64,000 nt of DNA, from positions 124,001 through 188,000 of the forward strand of contig JALGYY010000009.1 in NCBI GenBank assembly GCA_025782575.1, given 5' to 3'. Origin of the DNA: a bacterium. Its GTDB lineage: Bacteria > Orphanbacterota > Orphanbacteria > Orphanbacterales > Orphanbacteraceae. The notes beneath the pieces were generated by a model. That model was given only the letters and a program-made list of their open reading frames with translations. It was not told the origin of the DNA and made no database searches. The translations under genes and the position numbers were made by a program. Of this stretch, positions 29,500 through 50,993 are shown one piece after another; positions within the stretch are counted from its first letter, which is position 1; each line of letters opens with the position of its first letter.

Positions 29500-32400
29500 T
29501 CACCGAATGAGCATCATCTTCTTCGTTGCGGCGAATCCGCTCGCCTGCATGCGCACGAAGTAAAGTCCTGATGCGACACTCCGCCCCTGGCTGTCGTGCC
29601 CCTGCCAGTTCACATCCAGGTATCCGGCATCTCGTTCGTCATCGATGAGAGTTTTGACAAGGCGGCCGGCCAGATCGTAGATCGAAATATTGATATGTGA
29701 CCGTTCGGGTAGACCGAATCGGATCGATGTGGTCGGGTTGAACGGGTTCGGCACGTTGCCGTAAAGCAGGAACGCAGCGGGAACCGCCTCTGCTTCATCC
29801 ACTCCGGTCGGGTCGCCCGACTCCAGGAACTGATAGAAAGCATCAGCCACAAAGCCGGTCAGTTCCTGCACAGTTCCGCTCGGCCACGAAATCCGGATCG
29901 AATCAACCACTGTCGCCGATCCGAGCCCGAATTCGGCTGTAAGCGAGTTCTGCGACCCATAGCCTGAGCCGCCGGTGATTTCACGGATCTGGGCGAGGCC
30001 GCCTGCAACGATACGAACCCGGGCGCCGATAGCCGAACGGTTGGACGGCGATCCCACCAGATTGACGTGAACCCAGTGATTGCCTGTTACGGCCTCGTTA
30101 CGGAAGAGCCTTTTCGTAGCCGCGCTCGTCGCGATGTAGAGATCGAGATCGCCGTCGCTGTCGATGTCCGCCCAGGCCGCGCCGAGTCCGTTTCCTGCGT
30201 TAACGAGCGAGTCATCGGTCGCATCAGAAAAGAGACCGCCTCCTTCATTTCGGAAGAGTTTGTTCGATCCCGACTGATTGAGATAGAGATCGAGGTCCCC
30301 GTCATTGTCGTAGTCGGCCCAGGCGATTCCCCGGCCGCCCCCAATATCGGCGAGTAGGAGGGGAGTCACGTCGGCGAACACTCCGCCGCCGTCATTCCGG
30401 AACAACTTATTGGCGGCGCTCTCGTTCGAAACGTAGAGATCGAGATCGCCATCGTTATCGTAGTCAGCCCAAGCGACGCCATATGCCGAGCCGGCGTCTC
30501 CGAGAGGACCAGCCGTTATGTCGGTGAACGTTCCGCCGCCTTGATTCTCCAGCAGTTGATTGGGGCTGAACGCGTTCCCCACGTAGAGATCGAGATCACC
30601 GTCGTTATCGTGGTCGCCCCACGCACCTGAGAAGGAGAAACCAAGGCTGCTGAGCGGCCCGCTCGTGATGTCTGTGAATCCGCCGGCGCCGTCATTGTCG
30701 AGCAGTTTGTTGAACGATCCCGCGTTCGTAATATAGAGATCGAGATCACCGTCGTTGTCATGGTCCCCCCAGGCGCCCGAAAAACCGAAGCCGGCGTCGT
30801 TAAGGACCGCAGAGACTATATCAGCGAATACTCCTCCCCCGTCATTCCGGAAGAGTTTGTTCGCGGTCCCCGAGTTGACGAGATAGAGATCGAGGTCGCC
30901 GTCATTGTCGTAGTCACCCCACGCGCTCTGTACGCCATCGCCGGCATCGTTGAGAGGCGGCGCCGATACATCCGCGAATGTCGCCCCGTCGTCATTCCGA
31001 AACAGCTTGTTGGCCCCGAACGAGAGGCTGACGTAGAGGTCCTCGTCGCCATCGCCGTCATAGTCGCCCCAGGAAACGCCCTGAACGGTTCCCGCGTGAA
31101 TGAGTCCGCTGGCGGTCACATCCGCCCAGTCAGGCACAGGCTCCGTGATCGTGAGCGCCGTATCGACAGTGATCGCGGTCAGGAGCGACAGTTGCCCCGA
31201 AGGCCAGAAGACCTGGAGCGTGTCGATCAGAGTCGACGCCCCGAGCCCGAAGTCGGCCGGGAGGGAGTTCTGGGAGAGGTAACCGGAACCGCCGGAAATG
31301 TCTCGAATCTGTGCGATCCCGCCGGCCACGGCTCTCACACGCGCGCCGATTCCTGCTTTGTTCGAGATGACTCCGGCCGTCTTCACGCGAAGCCAGTGAT
31401 TCCCCGAAGTCTGGTCGTTTCGGAAGAGTTTGTTGGCACCGAGATTGGCGACGAATAGATCGAGATCACCGTCACCGTCGCTGTCGCCCCAGATCACGCT
31501 CTGGCTGTTACCGGCGTCACTCGTTTCGAAGTTTGCCGCGTCAACAAAAATCCCGCCGTCATTGCGGAAAAGGCGGTTAAAGTATTTGCCGGCCACGTAG
31601 AGATCGAGGTCACCATCCAGATCGTAATCGCCCCATGCCGCTCCGTAGCTTTCACCATCCACGTCGACCGGCGACGCTGATACTTCGGTGAATGATCCTC
31701 CGCTGTTCCGGAAGAGCTGGTTCGGCCCGATGTTGGTGACGTAGGCGTCGAGGTCGCCGTCATTGTCGTAATCACCCCATGCGACGCCTCTCCCCGTGCC
31801 GTTGTCCGAAGCACCAAGCCCGCCTCCGAGTTCCGTGAAGGTGCCGTTCGAATTGTTGCGGAATATCTTGTTGCTCCCCTCGTTCACCAGATAAATGTCC
31901 TGGTCACCGTCGTTGTCGTAGTCGACCCATACGGTCGCCCAACTGGGGCCACTGTTGGCGACCGTGCCCGGTGTGATATCGATCAGCGTTCCCGAGTCGT
32001 TTCTGAGGAGACGATTCGACTCGTTGTAATTCGTGATGTAGAGGTCGACATCGCCGTCGTTGTCGTAGTCGCCGAATGCGGCCGCGCGGCCGGCGCCCGG
32101 ATGACCCGCACCGCCGGAGGTCCCGTCGATAAATGTGCCTCCCCCTTGATTTTCAAAGAGTTTATTGGCTCCGTCATTGGCGAGGTAGAGGTCGAGATCG
32201 CCGTCGTTGTCTACATCGGCCCACGCCGTCCCGTAACTGATCGAAGCGTCGTCCAGGGGGGCGGCCGTAACATCGGAATAGCCGGCCGGACTGTTTTGGA
32301 GCAGCTGATTCGCTCCATCGCTGTTCGTGATATAGAGATCGGCATCGCCGTCTCCGTCGAAATCGGCCCAGGCGGCTCCCCGTGCCATACCCGTATGACC

Positions 32401-35400
32401 GACCGCCGCACTTGTGGCGTCGTGAATCAATGTGGACGGCGCGAACGGGGGAGCGATATCGAAGAACGCATCACTCTGATCGATCACAGCGCCTGCGGAA
32501 TTGAAAAGCGTCACACGCACGAGTGCTTCCCGGCTTGGAAGGTTGGGGACGACCCAGGCCAGGCTTCCTCCACCGCCGCCGGCGAGGCTGTCGGCGAGCA
32601 ATGTCCACGTCATTCCGCTGTCACCGCTCGACTCCACCGTATGGGCGACAGCCGAGCCTCCGCCGTTGGTCCATGTGATATTCACATTGCTGCCGATCTC
32701 GAGTGATTCGCCTCCGTTCGGCGATGTCACCGCCGTGATCGGGGCGGCTGTGATCGCGAAAGTCGCATCGCTCGTATCCCGGTCACTTCCCGCTGCGTTG
32801 GAGAGGAGGACGCGAACCCGGCCCTGGGTGGTCTCATCGTTCGGTACCGTCCAGTCAAATCCGCCCAGCTGCCCGCTTGATCCGGAGGCGACCGGATTCC
32901 ACGAAGAGCCGTTGTCGGTGGAATACTCGAGTGTGTAGTCAGAACCCACAGCGGATGTGCTCGTCCAGGTGATTTCTCTTACCGTTCCGACTCCCCAGTC
33001 TTCACCGCCGTCAGGAGAGAGGATGAGGGCGACCGGCGCAATGAACGACTCCGTAATCGTTACGAGTGTGTCCGCCGCGAGCGCGGTTACGATCTGATCG
33101 ATTCCTGATGGCCAGCTCACGATCAGCGTGTCCACGGTCGTCGTCTGGCCGATCCCGATCTCCGCTCGAAGCGAGCCCTGGCTTCGGCCGTTGCCAGCCG
33201 TTATCTCACGGATAAAGGATTTGCCCCCGGCCACGGCTCGAATGCGGGCGCCCACACCATGGGAGTTCGACACCGTTCCCGCCAGATCGACCTGGATATA
33301 GTGATCGCACTCCGCAGAGAGAGGGGTTGTCCGAAGCAGCACATTGCCACTCCCGTCATTGCCGAGATAGAGATCCATGAGGCCGTCACCGTCATAATCG
33401 GCCCAGGCCGCCGCGGCATGGTCGTTTCCGGCGTCCGTCTGGAGAGTGTCGGTCAGTTCGTGAAATTTCGCTTTGTAGTTGAAGAAAAACAGATTATCGT
33501 CAGGCGAGGCATTCCCCACGAAGAGGTCGATGTGGCCGTCGTTGTTATAGTCCGCCCATGAAACGGTAACCGCGTCGGATGCATCTCCGAGCAATCCGCC
33601 CGTTACATCCGCGAACGTCCCCCCGCCGTCATTCCGGAAGAGTTTGTTCGCGCCGTTGTTCCCTACATAAAGATCGAGGTCGCCGTCGTTGTCGATATCC
33701 GCCCAGGCGGCCGACCGGCTCACTACGGACGCTTCCCCGATCGAAGCGGGGGTAACGTCGGTGAACGATCCGGCACCGTTGTTTTCGAAGAGCTTATTTC
33801 CCGCCGCGACAGAACGGGCGAGGTAGAGATCCATGTCGCCGTCGTCGTCGAAATCACCCCAGGCGATGCCGGCGCCGTCAGTTGTGGTGGCGAACGCACC
33901 GCTCGCGACATCGGTGAACGATCCGGTCCCGTCATTCTCGAACAGGCTGCTTCCCGAAGAGGTCACGATATGGAGATCGAGATCGCCGTCATTGTCCTTG
34001 TCGAGCCATTCCACGGCCACGCCGTCACCGGCGTTGCCGATCCCGGCCGGTGTGATGTCGGCGAACACGCCGCCGCCGTCGTTCCGGAGAAGAAGATTGG
34101 CCGAGCCTGTATTTGTGATTACGAGATCGAGATCACCATCGTCGTCGAAATCTCCCCAGGCGGCTCCTGATCCGGCACCCGCGTTCCCGAGATCACCGGA
34201 AGTCACATCGACGAACGTTCCGGCCTGATTCTCGAGGAGTGCGTTGGCGCCGTTATTCAGCAGGAAGAGATCGGCATCGCCGTCGCCGTCGTAGTCGCCC
34301 CAGGCGACACCCGTCGCGCTGCCCGCATCAGCAAGCGGACCGCTGGTCGAATCGGCGATCCCGGTAATACCGAATGCGTTTCGAATATTCAGGAAACCAT
34401 AGCCGTATTTCGGATCGAACCCCGCAACGCCGCGGTCACGGGCGGAGCATTGGAGTCGCGCTTCCACTTCGGCGGCAGAGAGAGTCGGGTCGAGCGAGAA
34501 AAGTAGAGCCGCCACGCCGGCGGAGTAGGGCGAAGAAAAGCTCGTTCCACTCACGGACGCATAGTCTCCCGGTGCGACGCCGGCGGATCCGACACGGTCC
34601 GTCGTATAGACGGAGACACCAGGTGCGGCAAAGGCGAGGCTGTCACCCCAGCTGCTGAACGAAGCCAGATTTCCGTCCCGGCCGACGGCCGAAATCGAGT
34701 TCACCTTGCTATGGGAAGAGGGGTATCCGAGAACGGCGACAGCATTGTTTCCCGCGCTTGCGAAACTGACGATGCCGTTCGCATAGGCATTGTCGTATGC
34801 ATCGTCGATCGTGCTGTTCGGGCTTCCGAGCGACCAGCTCAGATTTGTCACTTTTGCGCCCTGCTGCCGGGCCCAGTTGAGTGCGTTGGCCACCCAGATT
34901 GACTGGCATTGCCCGGTTCCGTCACAAGGGACCGTGGATACACAGATCCGACCTCCGGCGACTCGGCAGCCCGGGGCGATTCCGACCGTACCGAGGGAGT
35001 TGTTGATCGTCGCCGACACGCAGCCCGCTACGGTCGTTCCATGTGTGTCACACATGTTGAAAGGGTTGCCGCCTCCTCCTTCACCCGTAAAGTCCTCTCC
35101 GGCGATCTGATGGAGGTCGGGATGAACCTGATCGACGCCGTCGTCGAATACGGCGACGATGATAGTGGAGTCTCCCGTGGTGAGATCCCACGCCCGGACA
35201 CCACCCATATCCATGCCCGGCGTACCGCCGGACTGACCTGTGTTATGGATGCCCCACACCAGATTGAATCCAGTGTCGTTCGGAATGAGCGATCTCCTCG
35301 ATTCCATCTGGAAGTCCGGTTCGGCCCAGGAAATACGGGAGTCCGCGGCGAGCCGGTTCGCAAGTGCGAGTACATCGAAACCGTTCTGTGAGGCAATGCT

Positions 35401-35943
35401 GGAACGAAGCCGATAAGCTCCGTCCAGTCCGGCAAAATCGGTTTCCAGAATCTGGATGGTGGGTTCGAGTTCGAACAGGATCTCTTCGGCGCGATATCGA
35501 GAAGCGGGATCGAACCTTACGAGAATTTCGGGGGTCACGGCGAGCCATCCGAAGAAGTGGCCGCGAAAGACCGGAGAGACGAACTCGAACTGGTCCGATG
35601 CGACGAGGATATTGATCATCCGGTCTGCATCACTTGCATCTACAGCTTCTGATTCCAGAAAGAGAAACTGGGAACTGGGCATAGGAGCGCTCTTCATTGA
35701 CATGGCGGGGATACCCGCAATATTCAGACTACCGAGCAGGCGCTTCCGGCCGACTTCTTCCGTAATCGCTTCTTTCGGCGTCACGGCGAATCGGGAGCCG
35801 TCTAGCTCGAGCTGCAGTGCTTCCCCTTTGTAGTAATAGAATGTTGGCGGTGATTCCGCGTGAACCAGGGCCGGTCCGGACGGGAGTGCTGAAAGAGTAA
35901 TAGAGAATGCGAGCGTGCAGACAATCGAGCGCAATCGGATCAT
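29500..35943 (-). CDS. Giant secreted subtilisin-like (S8) protease with 21 FG-GAP/VCBS repeats, three ASPIC/UnbV domains and FlgD-like sorting tail
   Basis: The protein has 2147 residues. ATG 35943 follows AGGAGG and a signal peptide (MIRLRSIVCTLAFSITLSAL). The S8 domain (about 215-515) has the triad Asp267 (FDDGVD), His301 (DTHGTTVAG) and Ser468 (SGTSFSSP), with Asn of the oxyanion hole in SAGNNA. Then come seven FG-GAP repeats (about 525-870) with DxDxDG calcium motifs such as DYDGDGDADL and an ASPIC/UnbV domain (about 875-965). Two Ig-like modules (about 970-1165; SPDGGEDW, PNGGESLEIG) lead to seven more repeats and ASPIC (to about 1605), then a third set of seven and ASPIC (to about 2035). 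The end (VPNPFNPTTSIRFGLP, YDLAGRLVKTL, GLYFVRMQ) is a FlgD-like/type IX-type sorting domain. It is probably cell-surface or extracellular. The substrate is unknown. Confidence 0.92.
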   Translation of the reverse strand: MIRLRSIVCTLAFSITLSALPSGPALVHAESPPTFYYYKGEALQLELDGSRFAVTPKEAITEEVGRKRLLGSLNIAGIPAMSMKSAPMPSSQFLFLESEAVDASDADRMINILVASDQFEFVSPVFRGHFFGWLAVTPEILVRFDPASRYRAEEILFELEPTIQILETDFAGLDGAYRLRSSIASQNGFDVLALANRLAADSRISWAEPDFQMESRRSLIPNDTGFNLVWGIHNTGQSGGTPGMDMGGVRAWDLTTGDSTIIVAVFDDGVDQVHPDLHQIAGEDFTGEGGGGNPFNMCDTHGTTVAGCVSATINNSLGTVGIAPGCRVAGGRICVSTVPCDGTGQCQSIWVANALNWARQQGAKVTNLSWSLGSPNSTIDDAYDNAYANGIVSFASAGNNAVAVLGYPSSHSKVNSISAVGRDGNLASFSSWGDSLAFAAPGVSVYTTDRVGSAGVAPGDYASVSGTSFSSPYSAGVAALLFSLDPTLSAAEVEARLQCSARDRGVAGFDPKYGYGFLNIRNAFGITGIADSTSGPLADAGSATGVAWGDYDGDGDADLFLLNNGANALLENQAGTFVDVTSGDLGNAGAGSGAAWGDFDDDGDLDLVITNTGSANLLLRNDGGGVFADITPAGIGNAGDGVAVEWLDKDNDGDLDLHIVTSSGSSLFENDGTGSFTDVASGAFATTTDGAGIAWGDFDDDGDMDLYLARSVAAGNKLFENNGAGSFTDVTPASIGEASVVSRSAAWADIDNDGDLDLYVGNNGANKLFRNDGGGTFADVTGGLLGDASDAVTVSWADYNNDGHIDLFVGNASPDDNLFFFNYKAKFHELTDTLQTDAGNDHAAAAWADYDGDGLMDLYLGNDGSGNVLLRTTPLSAECDHYIQVDLAGTVSNSHGVGARIRAVAGGKSFIREITAGNGRSQGSLRAEIGIGQTTTVDTLIVSWPSGIDQIVTALAADTLVTITESFIAPVALILSPDGGEDWGVGTVREITWTSTSAVGSDYTLEYSTDNGSSWNPVASGSSGQLGGFDWTVPNDETTQGRVRVLLSNAAGSDRDTSDATFAITAAPITAVTSPNGGESLEIGSNVNITWTNGGGSAVAHTVESSGDSGMTWTLLADSLAGGGGGSLAWVVPNLPSREALVRVTLFNSAGAVIDQSDAFFDIAPPFAPSTLIHDATSAAVGHTGMARGAAWADFDGDGDADLYITNSDGANQLLQNSPAGYSDVTAAPLDDASISYGTAWADVDNDGDLDLYLANDGANKLFENQGGGTFIDGTSGGAGHPGAGRAAAFGDYDNDGDVDLYITNYNESNRLLRNDSGTLIDITPGTVANSGPSWATVWVDYDNDGDQDIYLVNEGSNKIFRNNSNGTFTELGGGLGASDNGTGRGVAWGDYDNDGDLDAYVTNIGPNQLFRNSGGSFTEVSASPVDVDGESYGAAWGDYDLDGDLDLYVAGKYFNRLFRNDGGIFVDAANFETSDAGNSQSVIWGDSDGDGDLDLFVANLGANKLFRNDQTSGNHWLRVKTAGVISNKAGIGARVRAVAGGIAQIRDISGGSGYLSQNSLPADFGLGASTLIDTLQVFWPSGQLSLLTAITVDTALTITEPVPDWADVTASGLIHAGTVQGVSWGDYDGDGDEDLYVSLSFGANKLFRNDDGATFADVSAPPLNDAGDGVQSAWGDYDNDGDLDLYLVNSGTANKLFRNDGGGVFADIVSAVLNDAGFGFSGAWGDHDNDGDLDLYITNAGSFNKLLDNDGAGGFTDITSGPLSSLGFSFSGAWGDHDNDGDLDLYVGNAFSPNQLLENQGGGTFTDITAGPLGDAGSAYGVAWADYDNDGDLDLYVSNESAANKLFRNDGGGVFADVTPLLLADIGGGRGIAWADYDNDGDLDLYLNQSGSNKLFRNEGGGLFSDATDDSLVNAGNGLGAAWADIDSDGDLDLYIATSAATKRLFRNEAVTGNHWVHVNLVGSPSNRSAIGARVRIVAGGLAQIREITGGSGYGSQNSLTAEFGLGSATVVDSIRISWPSGTVQELTGFVADAFYQFLESGDPTGVDEAEAVPAAFLLYGNVPNPFNPTTSIRFGLPERSHINISIYDLAGRLVKTLIDDERDAGYLDVNWQGHDSQGRSVASGLYFVRMQASGFAATKKMMLIR
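30090..34370 (-). repeat. In-frame tandem FG-GAP repeat arrays (3 x 7)
   Basis: Within the giant protease, units of about 47-50 codons recur 21 times, each with a core like AWGDYDNDGDLDLYL followed by NKLFRNDGGG. They fall into three blocks of seven, near 34370-33340, 32420-31430 and 31110-30110. Neighbouring units in the third block are most alike (GAWGDHDNDGDLDLYI and GAWGDHDNDGDLDLYV), suggesting recent duplication. The antisense strand shows long false open frames here because of this periodicity. Confidence 0.9.
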
Positions 35944-36170
35944 CGAGAGCCTCCTGATAGAAATACGACACAGCCGGAGCTGATCCGGCCTATCCGGTTC
36001 AAACTTGTTGAGAGGGGAACAAGGGAGATCCAAGTCGTTAACTTGATGAGAATTATAACATTCCAACCCGGCCGGAATCAAGTCGGATCGTCAGAGGGGT
36101 ACTCGCGGTGGCCAGAATAGCGAGCTTGGAACAAAATTCGACATTTTCCACTATCTGACGAGGGGATCCG

Positions 36171-37706
36171 TCAATAGACGGGCATCTCCTGATCGACATC
36201 CTCTGCCCATGCCAGCAGACCGCCTTCCAGGTTTTTGACCTTCTTGAACCCCTGGTGAGCGAGATACATGGCCACCTGGGCGCTCCGGGCTCCGATTCGA
36301 CACTGGCAGACAATTTCCTTGTTGTGATCGATCTCGGCCAGTCGCGCGGGAATTTCGTTCATCGGAATGAGAACGGCTCCGGGTAACGAGCAGATCTGTA
36401 CTTCATGGGGCTCTCGTACATCCAGAATGACAAATGAGTCGTCGCCGGCGTCCATTCGCTCTTTGAGCTGAACCGCTGTAATGTCTCCGGGCATGATGAA
36501 CTCGCTGGTTTCATCGGCCTCCACCGATTCCTCCTGCTGTGCGAACCGCTTGCCCAGTTGCTCTTCCACCATCTTGTAGACTTCCCGGTTGGTATCCTCA
36601 TCGGTTTGCGCACCCGGAAGACCGCAGAACTCTTCATAGTCAATGAGTTCCCGTATGCTCGGATTGTCTCCGCAGATCGGGCAGTCCTTGTTGCGCCTCA
36701 GTTTGAGCTCTCGAAACTTCATACTGAGAGCATCGTAGAGCATGAGCCGACCCGAAAGAGTCTCTCCGATCCCCATCAGGATCTTGACAACCTCGGTCGC
36801 CTGGATCACTCCGATCAAGCCGGGCAGGATTCCCAGGACCCCCCCTTCCGCACAGGAAGGGACGAGTCCGGGGGGAGGCGGCTCCGGATAAAGGCACCGG
36901 TAGCACGGGCCGCCTTCATAGTGAAAGACAGAAGCCTGGCCTTCGAATCGAAAGATGCTCCCGTATACGTTCGGCTTGTTCAGCAGAACGCAGGCGTCGT
37001 TCACGAGATAGCGAGTGGGGAAGTTGTCCGTTCCATCGGCGACAACGTCATAGTCCCTGAAGATTTCGAGCGCATTGCCTGAATCGAGCCTGACTTCGTA
37101 TGTCTTGATTTCCACATGAGGGTTTAGGTCGTTCAAACGATTTCTTGCCGACTCCAGCTTGGGCCGGTCCACGGTGCTCGTGCCATGCAGAATCTGACGC
37201 TGCAGATTCGAATAGTCCACCACATCAAAATCGACGAGACCGATGCGCCCCACACCAGCGGCCGCCAGGTAGAGCGCCATCGGCGAGCCGAGTCCTCCCG
37301 CCCCGATGAGAAGCACACTCGCCCCCTTCAGCTTCTTCTGCCCCTCCATGGTCACTTCAGGCATGATGAGATGTCGGCTGTACCGTTGGATCTCCTCGTT
37401 GGAGAGCGTGATTTCCGCTCCGCTGCCTCCGGCGATCGATGGAATGATGCTGATCTCATCACCATCTTTGACCGGGGTCTCCTCGTTATCGAGGTGCCGG
37501 ATATCGTCGTCATTGACGTAGACGTTCACAAAGTTCCGGAGGGTCCCCTCGCCCGAGTAGAGGTGCCGCTTCAGATCGGGGTGGGCGCTCGTAAGACCGG
37601 CGAGCAGTTCCCCTACCGTTCGGCCGTCGAGCAAGACTCGGGGCTCGCCTCCGGTATAATTCCTGAGCGGTGTGGGAATGTGGATGATTATGGGCACGGG
37701 GGTCAC
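36171..37706 (-). CDS. CysO/MoaD-like carrier - E1 (MoeB/ThiF) - rhodanese fusion
   Basis: This 511-residue protein has three modules. Residues 1-94 form a beta-grasp sulfur carrier ending in an internal Gly-Gly (IPSIAGGSG, Gly93-Gly94). Residues about 100-350 form the E1 adenylyltransferase, with LLIGAGGLGSP, VDFDVVDYSNLQRQ, ADGTDNFPTRY and two zinc pairs CYRC (268/271) and CPIC (342/345). Residues about 410-511 form a rhodanese with LDVREPHE and catalytic Cys469 in CQCRIGARS. In Mycobacterium the carrier CysO and the E1-rhodanese MoeZ are separate proteins. Here they are one chain, directly after a CysO-cysteine peptidase and cysM, so the job is most likely protein-bound thiocarboxylate for cysteine synthesis. 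The internal Gly-Gly would need to be freed or used in place. The start overlaps the peptidase stop by 4 bases. Confidence 0.92.
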   Translation of the reverse strand: MTPVPIIIHIPTPLRNYTGGEPRVLLDGRTVGELLAGLTSAHPDLKRHLYSGEGTLRNFVNVYVNDDDIRHLDNEETPVKDGDEISIIPSIAGGSGAEITLSNEEIQRYSRHLIMPEVTMEGQKKLKGASVLLIGAGGLGSPMALYLAAAGVGRIGLVDFDVVDYSNLQRQILHGTSTVDRPKLESARNRLNDLNPHVEIKTYEVRLDSGNALEIFRDYDVVADGTDNFPTRYLVNDACVLLNKPNVYGSIFRFEGQASVFHYEGGPCYRCLYPEPPPPGLVPSCAEGGVLGILPGLIGVIQATEVVKILMGIGETLSGRLMLYDALSMKFRELKLRRNKDCPICGDNPSIRELIDYEEFCGLPGAQTDEDTNREVYKMVEEQLGKRFAQQEESVEADETSEFIMPGDITAVQLKERMDAGDDSFVILDVREPHEVQICSLPGAVLIPMNEIPARLAEIDHNKEIVCQCRIGARSAQVAMYLAHQGFKKVKNLEGGLLAWAEDVDQEMPVY

Positions 37707-38137
37707 TCCTCTCTTTCTCGTATCTGAATCAATTCACTGTCGAAGCCGGTTCGATCTTCACGCAGGAGCCAGGAGAGGGGGGTGGCCGGCTCGCCGCTCC
37801 GCACCTCAACAATAATATAGGAATAAAAAGGCCAGGCATGTTCCCTGTCGAACTCGGACGGCTCTCCCGGGTGGTCGGGATGGGAATGGTATACGCCGAC
37901 GATCTCCTTTGATTCACGACGAGCACGCTTTTCGCTCTCGAGAACGGCCTCGGGGGCGATGAGATACCGGCGCCTCTGAGCCTGCCCTTCGCGCTCGTTC
38001 TCGACAGGCCAGAGATCCGTAATCCACTTGCTCTCTTCGTCGGCTCTCCCCACGAGGAATCCGCAGCATTCATGGGGATAGGTCTTTCGCCCATGCTCCC
38101 GAATCGACTCGAGCTGCTCCCTTGAAAGTCTGATCAT
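37703..38137 (-). CDS. mec: JAMM/MPN metallopeptidase, probable CysO-cysteine peptidase (Mec-like)
   Basis: This 144-residue protein carries a complete JAMM zinc site: Glu23 in HECCGFLVG, and His84, His86, Ser94 and Asp97 in VYHSHPDHPGEPSEFD. Small stand-alone JAMM proteins next to cysM and cysO cleave cysteine from the C-terminus of the carrier CysO (Mec+ in Mycobacterium). It starts immediately after the cysM stop and overlaps the fusion gene by 4 bases, so the three are one operon. Because the carrier here is the N-terminal part of a fusion, the same peptidase could also cut after the internal Gly-Gly to release it (inference). The double cysteine after the Glu ligand is common in this family. 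Confidence 0.92.
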   Translation of the reverse strand: MIRLSREQLESIREHGRKTYPHECCGFLVGRADEESKWITDLWPVENEREGQAQRRRYLIAPEAVLESEKRARRESKEIVGVYHSHPDHPGEPSEFDREHAWPFYSYIIVEVRSGEPATPLSWLLREDRTGFDSELIQIREREE

Positions 38138-39073
38138 CTAGCTCTCATCCCAGAATGACTCACTCAGGTAACGCTCTCCCCCATCACAAAGTATGGTGAC
38201 TACCGTCCCCTCCGTGATTCTTCGTGCCACCTGAATTGCCGCCACGATATTCGCTCCGGATGATACGCCGACAAGGACGCCCGCCTCCCGCGCAAATCGC
38301 CTTACCATGGCCTGGGCCTCTTCCGTTTCGATTTCGATATTTTCGTCGGCAAAAGACGGGTCGTAGATGGGCGGTACTAGAACGGACTCCATATGCTTGA
38401 GGCCTTCGAGGCCATGCCAGGGAGAATCAGGCTGGACGCTGGAGAGGCGGATATCCGGGACGAGCTCTCGAAGCCTCCGGCCTGTTCCCATGAACGTTCC
38501 GGTTGTCCCGAGGCCGGCAACAAAATGAGTGACGGCGCCGTTCGTCTGCTCATGAATCTCGGGAGCGGTCGTCTTGTAATGGGCGCCCCAGTTGTCCGGG
38601 TTGCTGTACTGATCAGGGTAGAACCATTGTCCCGGTGCTTCCTCATAGAGGGCGCGTGCTTTGTAGATGGCGCCGTCGATCCCCTCGCCCGGATCGGTAA
38701 GAATGAGATGGGCGCCATAAGCGAGCAGTGTTGACCGGCGCTCCCTGTTGGCGTTCGCGGGCAGGCAGAGAGTGACATCATATCCGCGGGATGAGCCGAT
38801 CATCGCCAGCGCAATACCCGTGTTTCCGGACGTTGCTTCCAGAATCTTTCCCCCCGGTTTCAAACGCCCCCCGTTCTCCGCTGTCAGGATCATGTTGAGA
38901 GCGGCGCGATCCTTGACGGAACCGCCGGGGTTGGCAAACTCCGCTTTTCCGAACAGACTGACCCCTGGGGGGATTTCGTCGGCCACAGCTTCGAGTGAAA
39001 GGAGGGGGGTGTTTCCGATCAGGTCGATCAGACCCTGATTGTATCTGTCCATCGCCGGCTCAGAAGTTGACAC
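38138..39073 (-). CDS. cysM: Cysteine synthase (CysM/CysK family, PLP-dependent)
   Basis: This 311-residue enzyme of fold type II PLP proteins has the PLP lysine Lys54 in GGSVKDRAALN, the substrate-binding loop TSGNTG (81-86) and the phosphate-binding GLGTTGT loop. A CysK-type SAT-docking context is not evident. With the JAMM peptidase and CysO-like carrier following directly, it most resembles Mycobacterium CysM, which uses O-phosphoserine and thiocarboxylated CysO rather than free sulfide. Residue evidence for O-phosphoserine preference (an Arg near position 220) cannot be settled by eye. The segment KARALYEEAPGQWFYPDQYSNPDN is typical of CysM/CBS-like enzymes. It is the first gene of the operon. 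Confidence 0.93.
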   Translation of the reverse strand: MSTSEPAMDRYNQGLIDLIGNTPLLSLEAVADEIPPGVSLFGKAEFANPGGSVKDRAALNMILTAENGGRLKPGGKILEATSGNTGIALAMIGSSRGYDVTLCLPANANRERRSTLLAYGAHLILTDPGEGIDGAIYKARALYEEAPGQWFYPDQYSNPDNWGAHYKTTAPEIHEQTNGAVTHFVAGLGTTGTFMGTGRRLRELVPDIRLSSVQPDSPWHGLEGLKHMESVLVPPIYDPSFADENIEIETEEAQAMVRRFAREAGVLVGVSSGANIVAAIQVARRITEGTVVTILCDGGERYLSESFWDES

Positions 39074-48788: not shown

Positions 48789-49722
48789 GAAGAAGGGGGG
48801 ATTCCGCTGGACCTTCTGGAGAAGGACCAGCCAGTTTTTGCTTCTGCTCTTCTTCGCCCTTCTACCTGTTACATACCGGTCTGGCCAGGTCGACGTGATC
48901 GGTACTCTGGCGTCACTCCAGATCGGGCCGATTCACCTGGTCGATCCCGCGACCGGTATCTCGACGGCGCTGGCGGCCCGGTCGGTCCATACCGCCCTCC
49001 TGACCGGCATGATCCTGCCGCTACTTCTTGCTTTCGCTCTCGGGCCGGTATTCTGTTCATGGGTCTGTCCGTGGGGGCTTCTGTCGGAAATGATCGACAA
49101 GTTGCTTCGGAGGCGCGCCCGTCCCGTCCCCGATTGGGTAGCAAAGCTTCGATGGACGTTTCTGGGGGGTCTGTTTGCGATCTCGCTCGGAATCGGTTCA
49201 CCGATCGTCGCGACGATTTCCGCGCCCCGCCTGCTGACCGAGCTCCCGATGGATCTGATTTTTCTGGGAGGCGCATCGGCGGGCACGGTGGTTCTGCTCG
49301 GAGTTCTGCTCGTTCTCGAGTTCGTGCTGCCGAGACGGCTCTGGTGCCGGGCGCTCTGTCCGGTGGGTTCGACGCTCGTGCTCCTCCGAACGCCCTGGAC
49401 AGCCACGATTCGATGGAAGAACGCCACCTGCATCACCGGCGGATTCGGCGGGCATTGCGTCAAGAACTGCCCCTGGAATCTCGATCCCCGCCGGATGGGG
49501 AAATTGAGCGGATGCACCAACTGTGCCCGGTGTATCGAAGTCTGCCCTCCTGAGCCGGTTACGCCCCTCTCTTTCAGTTCGGGTGATCTAGGCGATCGCG
49601 CGTCTGAAAAGGACGCGCTCGAATCGTTCAGACGAATCGGACGGAATAGATCGGCGGAAAATGGGAACCGAGAGAGCGCCACGAATCGCCCCCGTCGTCA
49701 GACAGGAACAGATTCCCTGTAG
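48778..49722 (+). CDS. napH: NapH-like membrane iron-sulfur protein (quinol dehydrogenase)
   Basis: The 314-residue protein has four or five transmembrane helices, two cytoplasmic CxxxCP motifs (FCSWVCPWG, WCRALCPVG) and a C-terminal ferredoxin part with CVKNCP and CTNCARCIEVCP. These are the hallmarks of NapH. It should oxidise quinol and pass electrons through NapG to NapM and NapA. The last 45 residues are polar and basic and probably disordered. GTG 48778 is chosen as start since it overlaps the napG end and precedes the first basic/hydrophobic pattern (MPSKKKGGFRWTFWRR). The open frame to 48637 is antisense-free but not NapH-like. The 3' end overlaps the convergent gene by 95 bases. Confidence 0.88.
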   Translation: MPSKKKGGFRWTFWRRTSQFLLLLFFALLPVTYRSGQVDVIGTLASLQIGPIHLVDPATGISTALAARSVHTALLTGMILPLLLAFALGPVFCSWVCPWGLLSEMIDKLLRRRARPVPDWVAKLRWTFLGGLFAISLGIGSPIVATISAPRLLTELPMDLIFLGGASAGTVVLLGVLLVLEFVLPRRLWCRALCPVGSTLVLLRTPWTATIRWKNATCITGGFGGHCVKNCPWNLDPRRMGKLSGCTNCARCIEVCPPEPVTPLSFSSGDLGDRASEKDALESFRRIGRNRSAENGNRESATNRPRRQTGTDSL

Positions 49723-50716
49723 TCGTCCCGAAAGCGAGCGTCTCTCCCGTCAAGTCGAGCGCGTGCCGGAAGGTCACATCGTAGGCGTCCGCCTGGGGGA
49801 GTCCCTTCCGGTGCCCGGTCCAAGTTTTTCCCCCGTTTTCGGTTCGGCAGACGACCAGCTTGCCGTCGATCGCCACCCTGGTTTCGTCTGAAATCGCCGG
49901 CACCACCCATGCAGTTTCGGCGCTCTGTTTGTGCACCGCAATTGCGAAGCCGAAGTTCGCAGGTCCCCCTTTCTCTGAAATGTCGGTCCATGTCTTCGCG
50001 CCGTCAGTGCTCCGGAAGATCCCGCAATGGTTCTGCTGCCATAGAACGTTGAAATCACTCGGGCTCGCCACCATGAGATGGGGATCATGGCCCACTTCGG
50101 CATCAGGATCGGGCAGAAAATCCGCTCGAAGGCCCTTATTTCTCGGTGCCCAGGTCTCCAGGCTGTCTGTCGACTCGAACACGCCGGCCACGCTCACGCC
50201 GACGAGAACTCTTGAAGTGTCGTTCGGATCGATACAGATCGAGTGGATGCCGGCCTGGTCCCTGCCGCCGCCGAACCAGCTCTCTTTGCGTGACGGATGG
50301 TCCCAGAGGGACCGAACGAGCTTGAAAGAGGCGCCGCCGTCGTCACTCTGGAAGAGGCCCCCCGGCTCCGTGCCGATATAGATGCGGTCCGGCTGATCCC
50401 CGAGTGCCGGCTGAAGAATCCAGAGATAGCGTGTGGCCGCTTCCAGATCGTCCTTGATCTTCTCTCCTTCGGGATACTTCGGCGCGGCGAGTGCTTCCCA
50501 CGTGGCCCCCCGATCGGCGGATCGCTCCAGTTTCTGGCCCCAGTGGCCATGATCGAGACAGGCCCATAATAATCCCGTTCGGGAATCGATCGTGGCATAG
50601 GGGATCGGGATGCCGAGATGGGCCACCGTCCTGACCTTCCAGTCCCCCCCCTTTTTTCCCATTACAAAGAGGCCCTTACGTGTGCCGAGTACGAGAGTCG
50701 ACCGGGAATCGCTCAT
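49628..50716 (-). CDS. BNR/YCF48-like beta-propeller protein
   Basis: This 362-residue protein contains repeated Asp-box (BNR) motifs: RSADRGATWEAL, QSDDGGASFKLV, ESTDSLETWAP, RSTDGAKTWTD, RTENGGKTWTG and LSDDGGDSWRSL. It opens with LVLGTRKGLFVM. The sequence is often annotated as exo-alpha-sialidase, but no sialidase arginine triad or FRIP motif is visible, so I call it a propeller of unknown function. It has no signal peptide and should be cytosolic. ATG 50716 follows GGAGG. It starts one base after the stop of the MoaD/ThiS-type carrier gene, so the two proteins may work together. The 3' end overlaps napH by 95 bases. Confidence 0.8.
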   Translation of the reverse strand: MSDSRSTLVLGTRKGLFVMGKKGGDWKVRTVAHLGIPIPYATIDSRTGLLWACLDHGHWGQKLERSADRGATWEALAAPKYPEGEKIKDDLEAATRYLWILQPALGDQPDRIYIGTEPGGLFQSDDGGASFKLVRSLWDHPSRKESWFGGGRDQAGIHSICIDPNDTSRVLVGVSVAGVFESTDSLETWAPRNKGLRADFLPDPDAEVGHDPHLMVASPSDFNVLWQQNHCGIFRSTDGAKTWTDISEKGGPANFGFAIAVHKQSAETAWVVPAISDETRVAIDGKLVVCRTENGGKTWTGHRKGLPQADAYDVTFRHALDLTGETLAFGTTTGNLFLSDDGGDSWRSLGSHFPPIYSVRFV

Positions 50717-50717
50717 C

Positions 50718-50993
50718 TCAACCTCCGGAGAGTGCCTGTAGAACAAAGATTTTGTCGGTATCTTCCACTTTGTCTGTAAGGCGTTTCTGATCGTGAATGA
50801 TTTCGTTGCCGATGAAAATGTTGACGTGCTGGCGGAGGGCGCCCTGATCATCCACCAGGTAGCCTCCCATGCCGGGGTACTTGTCTTCCAGAGCGCGTAC
50901 GATCTCGGAAACCGTAGCGCCCGGGACTTCCACATCCTGTTCGAGTGCGGGGAAGAATCGTGCAAGGTGCTGCGTGAATCGAACGGTCGCCAT
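50718..50993 (-). CDS. Free MoaD/ThiS-family sulfur carrier protein
   Basis: This 91-residue beta-grasp protein ends in the functional Gly-Gly (FVLQALSGG), with the family pattern MATVRFTQHLARFF, TVSEIVRALEDKYPGMGGYL and HVNIFIGNEII. The C-terminus can be adenylated by an E1 enzyme and loaded with sulfur as a thiocarboxylate. The window has one E1 enzyme, the fusion at 36171-37706, which could serve it. No molybdopterin synthase large subunit (MoaE) or thiazole gene is nearby. Neighbours are DUF4301 (15 bases upstream) and the BNR propeller downstream. The use of the sulfur is unknown: cofactor, cysteine or tRNA thiolation are possible. Confidence 0.88.
   Translation of the reverse strand: MATVRFTQHLARFFPALEQDVEVPGATVSEIVRALEDKYPGMGGYLVDDQGALRQHVNIFIGNEIIHDQKRLTDKVEDTDKIFVLQALSGG

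Follow-up and report, generated by a model that had tools for sequence, protein, structure and literature searches.

Carrier-protein cysteine synthesis has been described in Mycobacterium tuberculosis, where it involves the carrier CysO, the cysteine synthase CysM, the peptidase Mec, whose described role is cysteine release, and the E1-rhodanese MoeZR (PMC3227635). In this study we focus on a 64,000-nucleotide stretch of DNA from a bacterium of the family Orphanbacteraceae (contig JALGYY010000009.1, positions 124,001 to 188,000; hereafter the window), and specifically on its operon at 36171 to 39073, which encodes a cysM-type cysteine synthase, a JAMM peptidase and a 511-residue chain joining a carrier to an E1-rhodanese. 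Like the mycobacterial system, the window thus has a CysO-type carrier, a CysM, a JAMM peptidase and an E1-rhodanese, a composition that a preliminary description of this DNA had proposed and that is borne out by the CysO-family score of the carrier and by the presence of cysM and JAMM genes. It differs in that carrier and E1-rhodanese form one chain with an internal Gly-Gly, in that both CXXC motifs occur in the E1, which sets it apart from MoeZR, and in that a lysine replaces Arg220 of CysM. Nor is the gene order that of the actinobacterial-type operons encountered in this analysis.

Other described systems share parts of this arrangement. Operon class 4c of Iyer, Burroughs and Aravind (2006, PMC1779556) also groups a ThiS/MoaD-like carrier, an E1-rhodanese, a JAB protein and a cysteine synthase, and one of its examples is from an acidobacterium listed as Susi (probably Solibacter usitatus); the accessible part of that account describes the E1 as fused to the rhodanese and, unlike the window, no joined carrier. 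Fusions of ubiquitin-like proteins (Ubls) with E1 enzymes have been found in Thaumarchaeota and bacteria (PMC2948915). Moreover, the MoaD-MoeBR fusions reported in 2024 (PMC11237513) have the same domain order and the same two CXXC motifs as the window chain, and the archaeal members are >55% identical to acidobacterial proteins. The accessible sections of that paper interpret them as molybdenum-cofactor proteins and do not connect them with CysO, cysM or JAMM, whereas the carrier domain in the window is not MoaD as judged by hidden Markov models (HMMs).

Carriers with residues beyond the Gly-Gly are also known from systems with other partners. MoaX (PMC4326299) and DR2607 of Deinococcus (PMC8832034) each join an internal-Gly-Gly carrier to a partner enzyme and need cleavage for activity; MoaX is cut at Gly82-Ser83, and the Deinococcus MoaD-MoaE fusion is cut by a JAMM that leaves a C-terminal Gly. 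There the partner is MoaE and the pathway another one, while the partner in the window is the activating E1-rhodanese. Capped carriers served by JAMM proteases, for example PtmS2 and the substrate of QbsD, require a protease that removes the residues after Gly-Gly before activation, the Ptm cap being one or two residues against 417 in the window chain (PMC6006322). The window shares with these JAMM-matured fused or capped carriers both the residues beyond Gly-Gly and a JAMM peptidase in the genome. Class 4c operons, Ubl-E1 fusions, the triple-domain fusion and JAMM processing of fused or capped carriers are therefore each known separately; the connection with CysO and cysM, the conservation of the predicted cut boundary and the finding that cysE is often absent appear to be new.

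We consider it likely that the 511-residue chain is the precursor of a CysO-type carrier, which would be freed by a peptidase, probably the JAMM, and loaded in trans, after which CysM and the JAMM would make and release cysteine. The features of the operon are as follows.

38138..39073, minus strand: cysM-type cysteine synthase, 311 residues, the operon's first gene (Pfam PALP, 6.7e-68)
37703..38137, minus strand: JAMM/Mec-like zinc peptidase, 144 residues (Pfam Prok-JAB, 2.3e-25)
36171..37706, minus strand: fusion of CysO carrier, E1 and rhodanese, 511 residues, GTG start (Pfam ThiS, ThiF and rhodanese domains)
37425..37691, minus strand: CysO-type beta-grasp carrier domain, residues 6-94, ending P-S-I-A-G93-G94 (CysO HMM, 110.5 bits)
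37407..37424, minus strand: proposed cleavage linker S95-T100, immediately after Gly94 (column entropy and model confidence)
36615..37406, minus strand: E1 (MoeB/ThiF-like) adenylation domain, about residues 101-364 (ThiF, 8e-84)
36171..36485, minus strand: rhodanese domain, about residues 408-511 plus the stop codon, active-site Cys469 (Rhodanese, 4e-19)

All three open reading frames lie where the preliminary description had placed them: cysM abuts the JAMM gene, whose stop overlaps the start of the fusion by 4 nucleotides. Pfam bounds the domains of the long chain at 8-94 (ThiS), 109-343 (ThiF) and 411-502 (rhodanese), which confirms that carrier, activator and sulfur donor are joined in a single polypeptide, and Gly93-Gly94 is indeed internal.

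The identity of the carrier was examined with HMMs for CysO, MoaD and ThiS made in this analysis, the CysO set being CysOs encoded in operons. The window carrier scored 110.5 bits with CysO, 27.7 with MoaD and 24.4 with ThiS, and the fused carriers as a group likewise scored far higher with CysO than with the other two models, which rules out a MoaD or ThiS identity. Its best matches among solved structures are 4n6e_B and M. tuberculosis CysO itself (3dwg_C, from an entry that also contains CysM). On these profile scores the fused carrier domain is of CysO type. It departs from the classical form of CysO, a small separate protein ending at or just after Gly-Gly, in having 417 residues downstream of Gly94.

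Adenylation and thiocarboxylation of a carrier require a free C-terminal glycine. Because the thiocarboxylate forms only on such a glycine, the uncut chain should be unable to act as a working carrier. In the mechanism that we propose, a peptidase, most likely the co-encoded JAMM, would first cut after Gly94 to give a free carrier and an E1-rhodanese. The E1 would then adenylate the new C-terminus of the carrier, now acting in trans, and the persulfide of the rhodanese would convert the adenylate to a thiocarboxylate. CysM would couple this thiocarboxylate to an aminoacrylate, probably derived from O-phosphoserine, and the JAMM would finally free the cysteine and regenerate the carrier. The fusion would thereby fix output at one carrier per activator. 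It had been suggested earlier that sulfur moves within one polypeptide; this is unlikely, and it conflicts with the maturation of the carrier suggested in the same description, since loading needs the free glycine. A fuller version of the proposal, to which we give even chances, is that the chain is a CysO zymogen for which one JAMM performs both carrier maturation and cysteine release, and that in lineages lacking cysE this would be the O-phosphoserine route, with maturation as its switch.

The distribution of the fusion was followed by scanning bacterial genomes and searching relatives, and 35 chains were found in which carrier and E1 share one reading frame. Besides the window's own family, they represent Acidobacteriota, Armatimonadota, Kiritimatiellota, Ignavibacteriota, KSB1 and Elusimicrobiota. 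The preliminary description had advised looking for the same domain order beside cysM in other genomes, and the order cysM, JAMM, fusion was found at 27 of the 35 loci. Three further loci have the JAMM but no recognisable cysM adjacent, and five from Armatimonadota (Fimbriimonadales type) have neither gene nearby, the JAMM being encoded elsewhere in the genome. Since so many phyla share the architecture, most of the loci having cysM and JAMM in identical order, the fusion is no product of chance, and a frameshift or misassembly as its source is ruled out.

The carrier also occurs as a separate gene between the JAMM and the E1-rhodanese (loci L041, L045, L053, L059, L061, L062, L063 and L066). 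In a tree of the E1s, the well-supported branches require at least four changes between fused and split states, and the fused L037 is sister to the split L063 on very short branches. On this tree, fused and split forms interchange among closely related E1s. Two side observations concern related architectures. A genome of the window's family (G003) encodes a fusion of JAMM, E1 and rhodanese (L130:6051-7814, minus strand) with no carrier domain and an E1 without the PSCAEGG cysteine loop. At two acidobacterial loci, a cysteine-synthase-like enzyme with a C-terminal rhodanese lies directly upstream of the JAMM and the fusion (L058:4924-6261 and L074:4936-6273; Pfam was run on L058 only).

The end of the carrier domain is sharply delimited. 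A-G-G is kept in 35/35 fused chains, and the linker that follows is unrelated in sequence and length. In an alignment of 27 fusions the column entropy is 0 at Ala92-Gly93-Gly94 and 2.3-3.1 bits at columns 95-100, and the segment reaching from Gly94 to Arg108 is between 10 and 33 residues long. An AlphaFold2 model of the 511-residue chain has a mean predicted local distance difference test score (pLDDT) of 82.9; residues 91-97 fall below 50 and are flanked by two confident domains. The packing of the domains, including docking of the carrier in cis on the E1, is not resolved by the model (predicted template modelling score 0.58). The conservation edge at Gly94 and the flexibility predicted for the linker suggest a cleavage boundary, short of proof. 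Furthermore, stand-alone carriers from fusion-related split operons and from the actinobacterial-type operons (L078-L110), whose tails were counted by hand from sequence listings, have at least one residue after Gly-Gly in 30/48 cases, against 6/22 for ThiS proteins. Tail removal may be an old feature of the CysO system, with the fusion as its extreme form.

The activating part of the chain appears complete. The zinc cysteines and nucleotide-site residues of the E1 are intact, and the CXXC pairs 268/271 and 342/345, Cys285 (PSCAEGG), Lys183 and Asp227 are invariant in the 27 aligned fusions, as are C469, G472, R474 and S475 of the rhodanese loop C-x-x-G-x-R-S. With both CXXC pairs, the window E1 follows the MoeBR pattern and is not of the MoeZR type, which lacks the second motif (PMC3227635). 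In per-family searches of the window's own 95%-complete genome assembly it was the only MoeB/ThiF-like E1 found, and about half of the other fused genomes that were checked likewise gave a single full ThiF match. The cultured acidobacterium Terriglobus roseus DSM 18391 (L054), by contrast, has a second E1 and also a second carrier. As no other such E1 was found, the fused enzyme probably also acts in trans on MoaD and ThiS, barring a gene missed in the assembly. A second ThiF on contig C2 was ruled out as a substitute for MoeB, since it is only distantly ThiF-like and neighbours a JAB-like reading frame (L149:1396-2968, minus strand), probably as a separate system.

Three other Ubls are encoded in the same genome: a MoaD-MoaE fusion, a ThiS adjoining apparent thiazole-synthesis genes, and a 91-residue protein. 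The MoaD-MoaE fusion (L139:5275-5955, minus strand, contig C2) has an internal Gly-Gly too, so that the genome holds two carriers of this kind; at least seven of the genomes carrying a fused or split CysO operon also have a MoaD-MoaE fusion.

The source of the aminoacrylate can be approached through serine acetyltransferase, since a genome without a recognisable cysE would probably draw it from O-phosphoserine. No cysE was detected above cut-off in the window's own genome, and at three of four weak matches the reading frames looked, on inspection, LpxD-like and sugar-acyltransferase-like and not like CysE. A cysE-like match (E < 1e-30) was present in 5/22 fused genomes, compared with 53/92 other relatives. 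Within the window's family, five genomes have a strong JAMM and no cysE, and two have a cysE and no strong JAMM (Fisher p 0.048). Like the JAMM comparison below, these co-occurrence counts take no account of phylogeny.

Several observations weigh against the precursor proposal, beginning with the cysteine synthase. The best NCBIfam model for the window CysM is TIGR01138 (cysM), at 350 bits and below the cut-off of 394. The residue equivalent to Arg220 of M. tuberculosis CysM, the position marking O-phosphoserine use, is lysine in the window enzyme and in 32/35 related CysMs, while it is arginine in 30/32 of the L078-L110 set; taken together with the cysE results, this fits an O-phosphoserine substrate without settling the choice. 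Across all 98 relatives, the anticorrelation of JAMM and cysE is not significant (p 0.30). Cysteine may moreover have other routes, because the genome also encodes two CBS-like enzymes and one further CysK/M-like enzyme. Finally, the 91-residue carrier-like protein (window 50718-50993, minus strand) ends in LSGG, with an exposed C-terminal GG, and at 51.8 bits on the CysO HMM it is about half CysO-like, so that the genome keeps a second, partly similar carrier.

The role of the peptidase is similarly debatable. Its zinc site is complete (HSHPDHPGEPSEFD, pattern HSHP-x7-S-x2-D, plus an upstream Glu in ECCGF), as had been noted before, and the closest solved chains are 2kcq and 2kks. It might be limited, like Mec, to cysteine release, with a protease of another kind maturing the chain. 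We regard this as unlikely, even though release is the role described for Mec (PMC3227635) and the protease that cuts MoaX has not been identified (PMC4326299). JAMMs elsewhere do cut Ubl fusions and uncap carriers, and a role of the JAMM in maturation is supported by these precedents (PMC8832034, PMC6006322) and by its presence in every fused genome tested. A genome search found a JAMM in 23/23 fused genomes, unlinked cases included, against 31/92 other relatives under a stronger threshold (Fisher p 1.2e-9), a comparison that ignores phylogeny and in which the JAMM is mostly the neighbour of the fusion gene. For that reason the unlinked JAMMs of Armatimonadota are the most telling.

A different possibility, which we also find improbable, is that the carrier domain is never cut and remains an appendage of the E1 with a structural or regulatory role, the E1-rhodanese serving separate carriers such as ThiS, MoaD and the 91-residue Ubl. 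The window's own genome does have these three Ubls and a single MoeB/ThiF-like E1, Ub-ThiF fusions beside a stand-alone ThiS appear in the accessible part of Iyer et al. (PMC1779556), and a second CysO-type carrier is present in seven fused genomes (G074, G103, G104, G105, G110, G114 and G120). However, an appendage gives no obvious reason for an A-G-G kept in every chain with a variable linker directly after it, and where the operon is split, the carrier is a plain one. A separate CysO always kept beside the fusion, which had been expected to count against the fused carrier, was not the pattern found: several fused genomes have no other CysO-type carrier. In the complete genome G100 (AP024673.1), ThiS is the sole carrier besides the fusion, and G106, G107, G109, G111, G112, G118 and G119 lack any further carrier scoring more than 60 bits with the CysO HMM, although the genomes compared are mostly incomplete.

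That the chain is mainly a molybdenum-cofactor protein with an incidental cysM linkage is very improbable: the MoeBR pattern of its E1, the MoaD-MoeBR name given to the architecture in the accessible part of the archaeal fusion survey (PMC11237513) and its position as the genome's only MoeB candidate speak for it, but the carrier scores 110.5 bits with CysO and 27.7 with MoaD, the genome has its own MoaD-MoaE fusion, and cysM and JAMM adjoin most of the fused loci.

If the precursor proposal is true, carrier-protein cysteine synthesis, characterised mainly in actinobacteria, would reach Acidobacteriota, Armatimonadota and several little-studied phyla, and cysteine formation in some of these lineages despite the lack of a recognisable serine acetyltransferase would become easier to explain. 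Proteins that bear the MoaD-MoeBR name may then in some cases actually function in cysteine synthesis. The system also makes it possible to test cleanly if a single JAMM is responsible for both maturation and recycling of a ubiquitin-like carrier, and what effect the fusion of carrier and E1 has.

Around the operon, a major-facilitator transporter gene lies upstream of cysM across a gap of ~300 bases, and from this spacing cysM is probably the start of the operon. No structured RNA was detected in the operon at Rfam gathering thresholds. The 91-residue Ubl adjoins a BNR/sortilin-like beta-propeller protein (49631-50710, minus strand), and carriers resembling it also occur in two other genomes (G002 and G005). 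Downstream of the operon, a 2193-residue reading frame (29500-36081, minus strand), judged on inspection only, resembles subtilisin in its N-terminal part, contains numerous FG-GAP-like repeats and has a sorting-like domain at its C-terminus.

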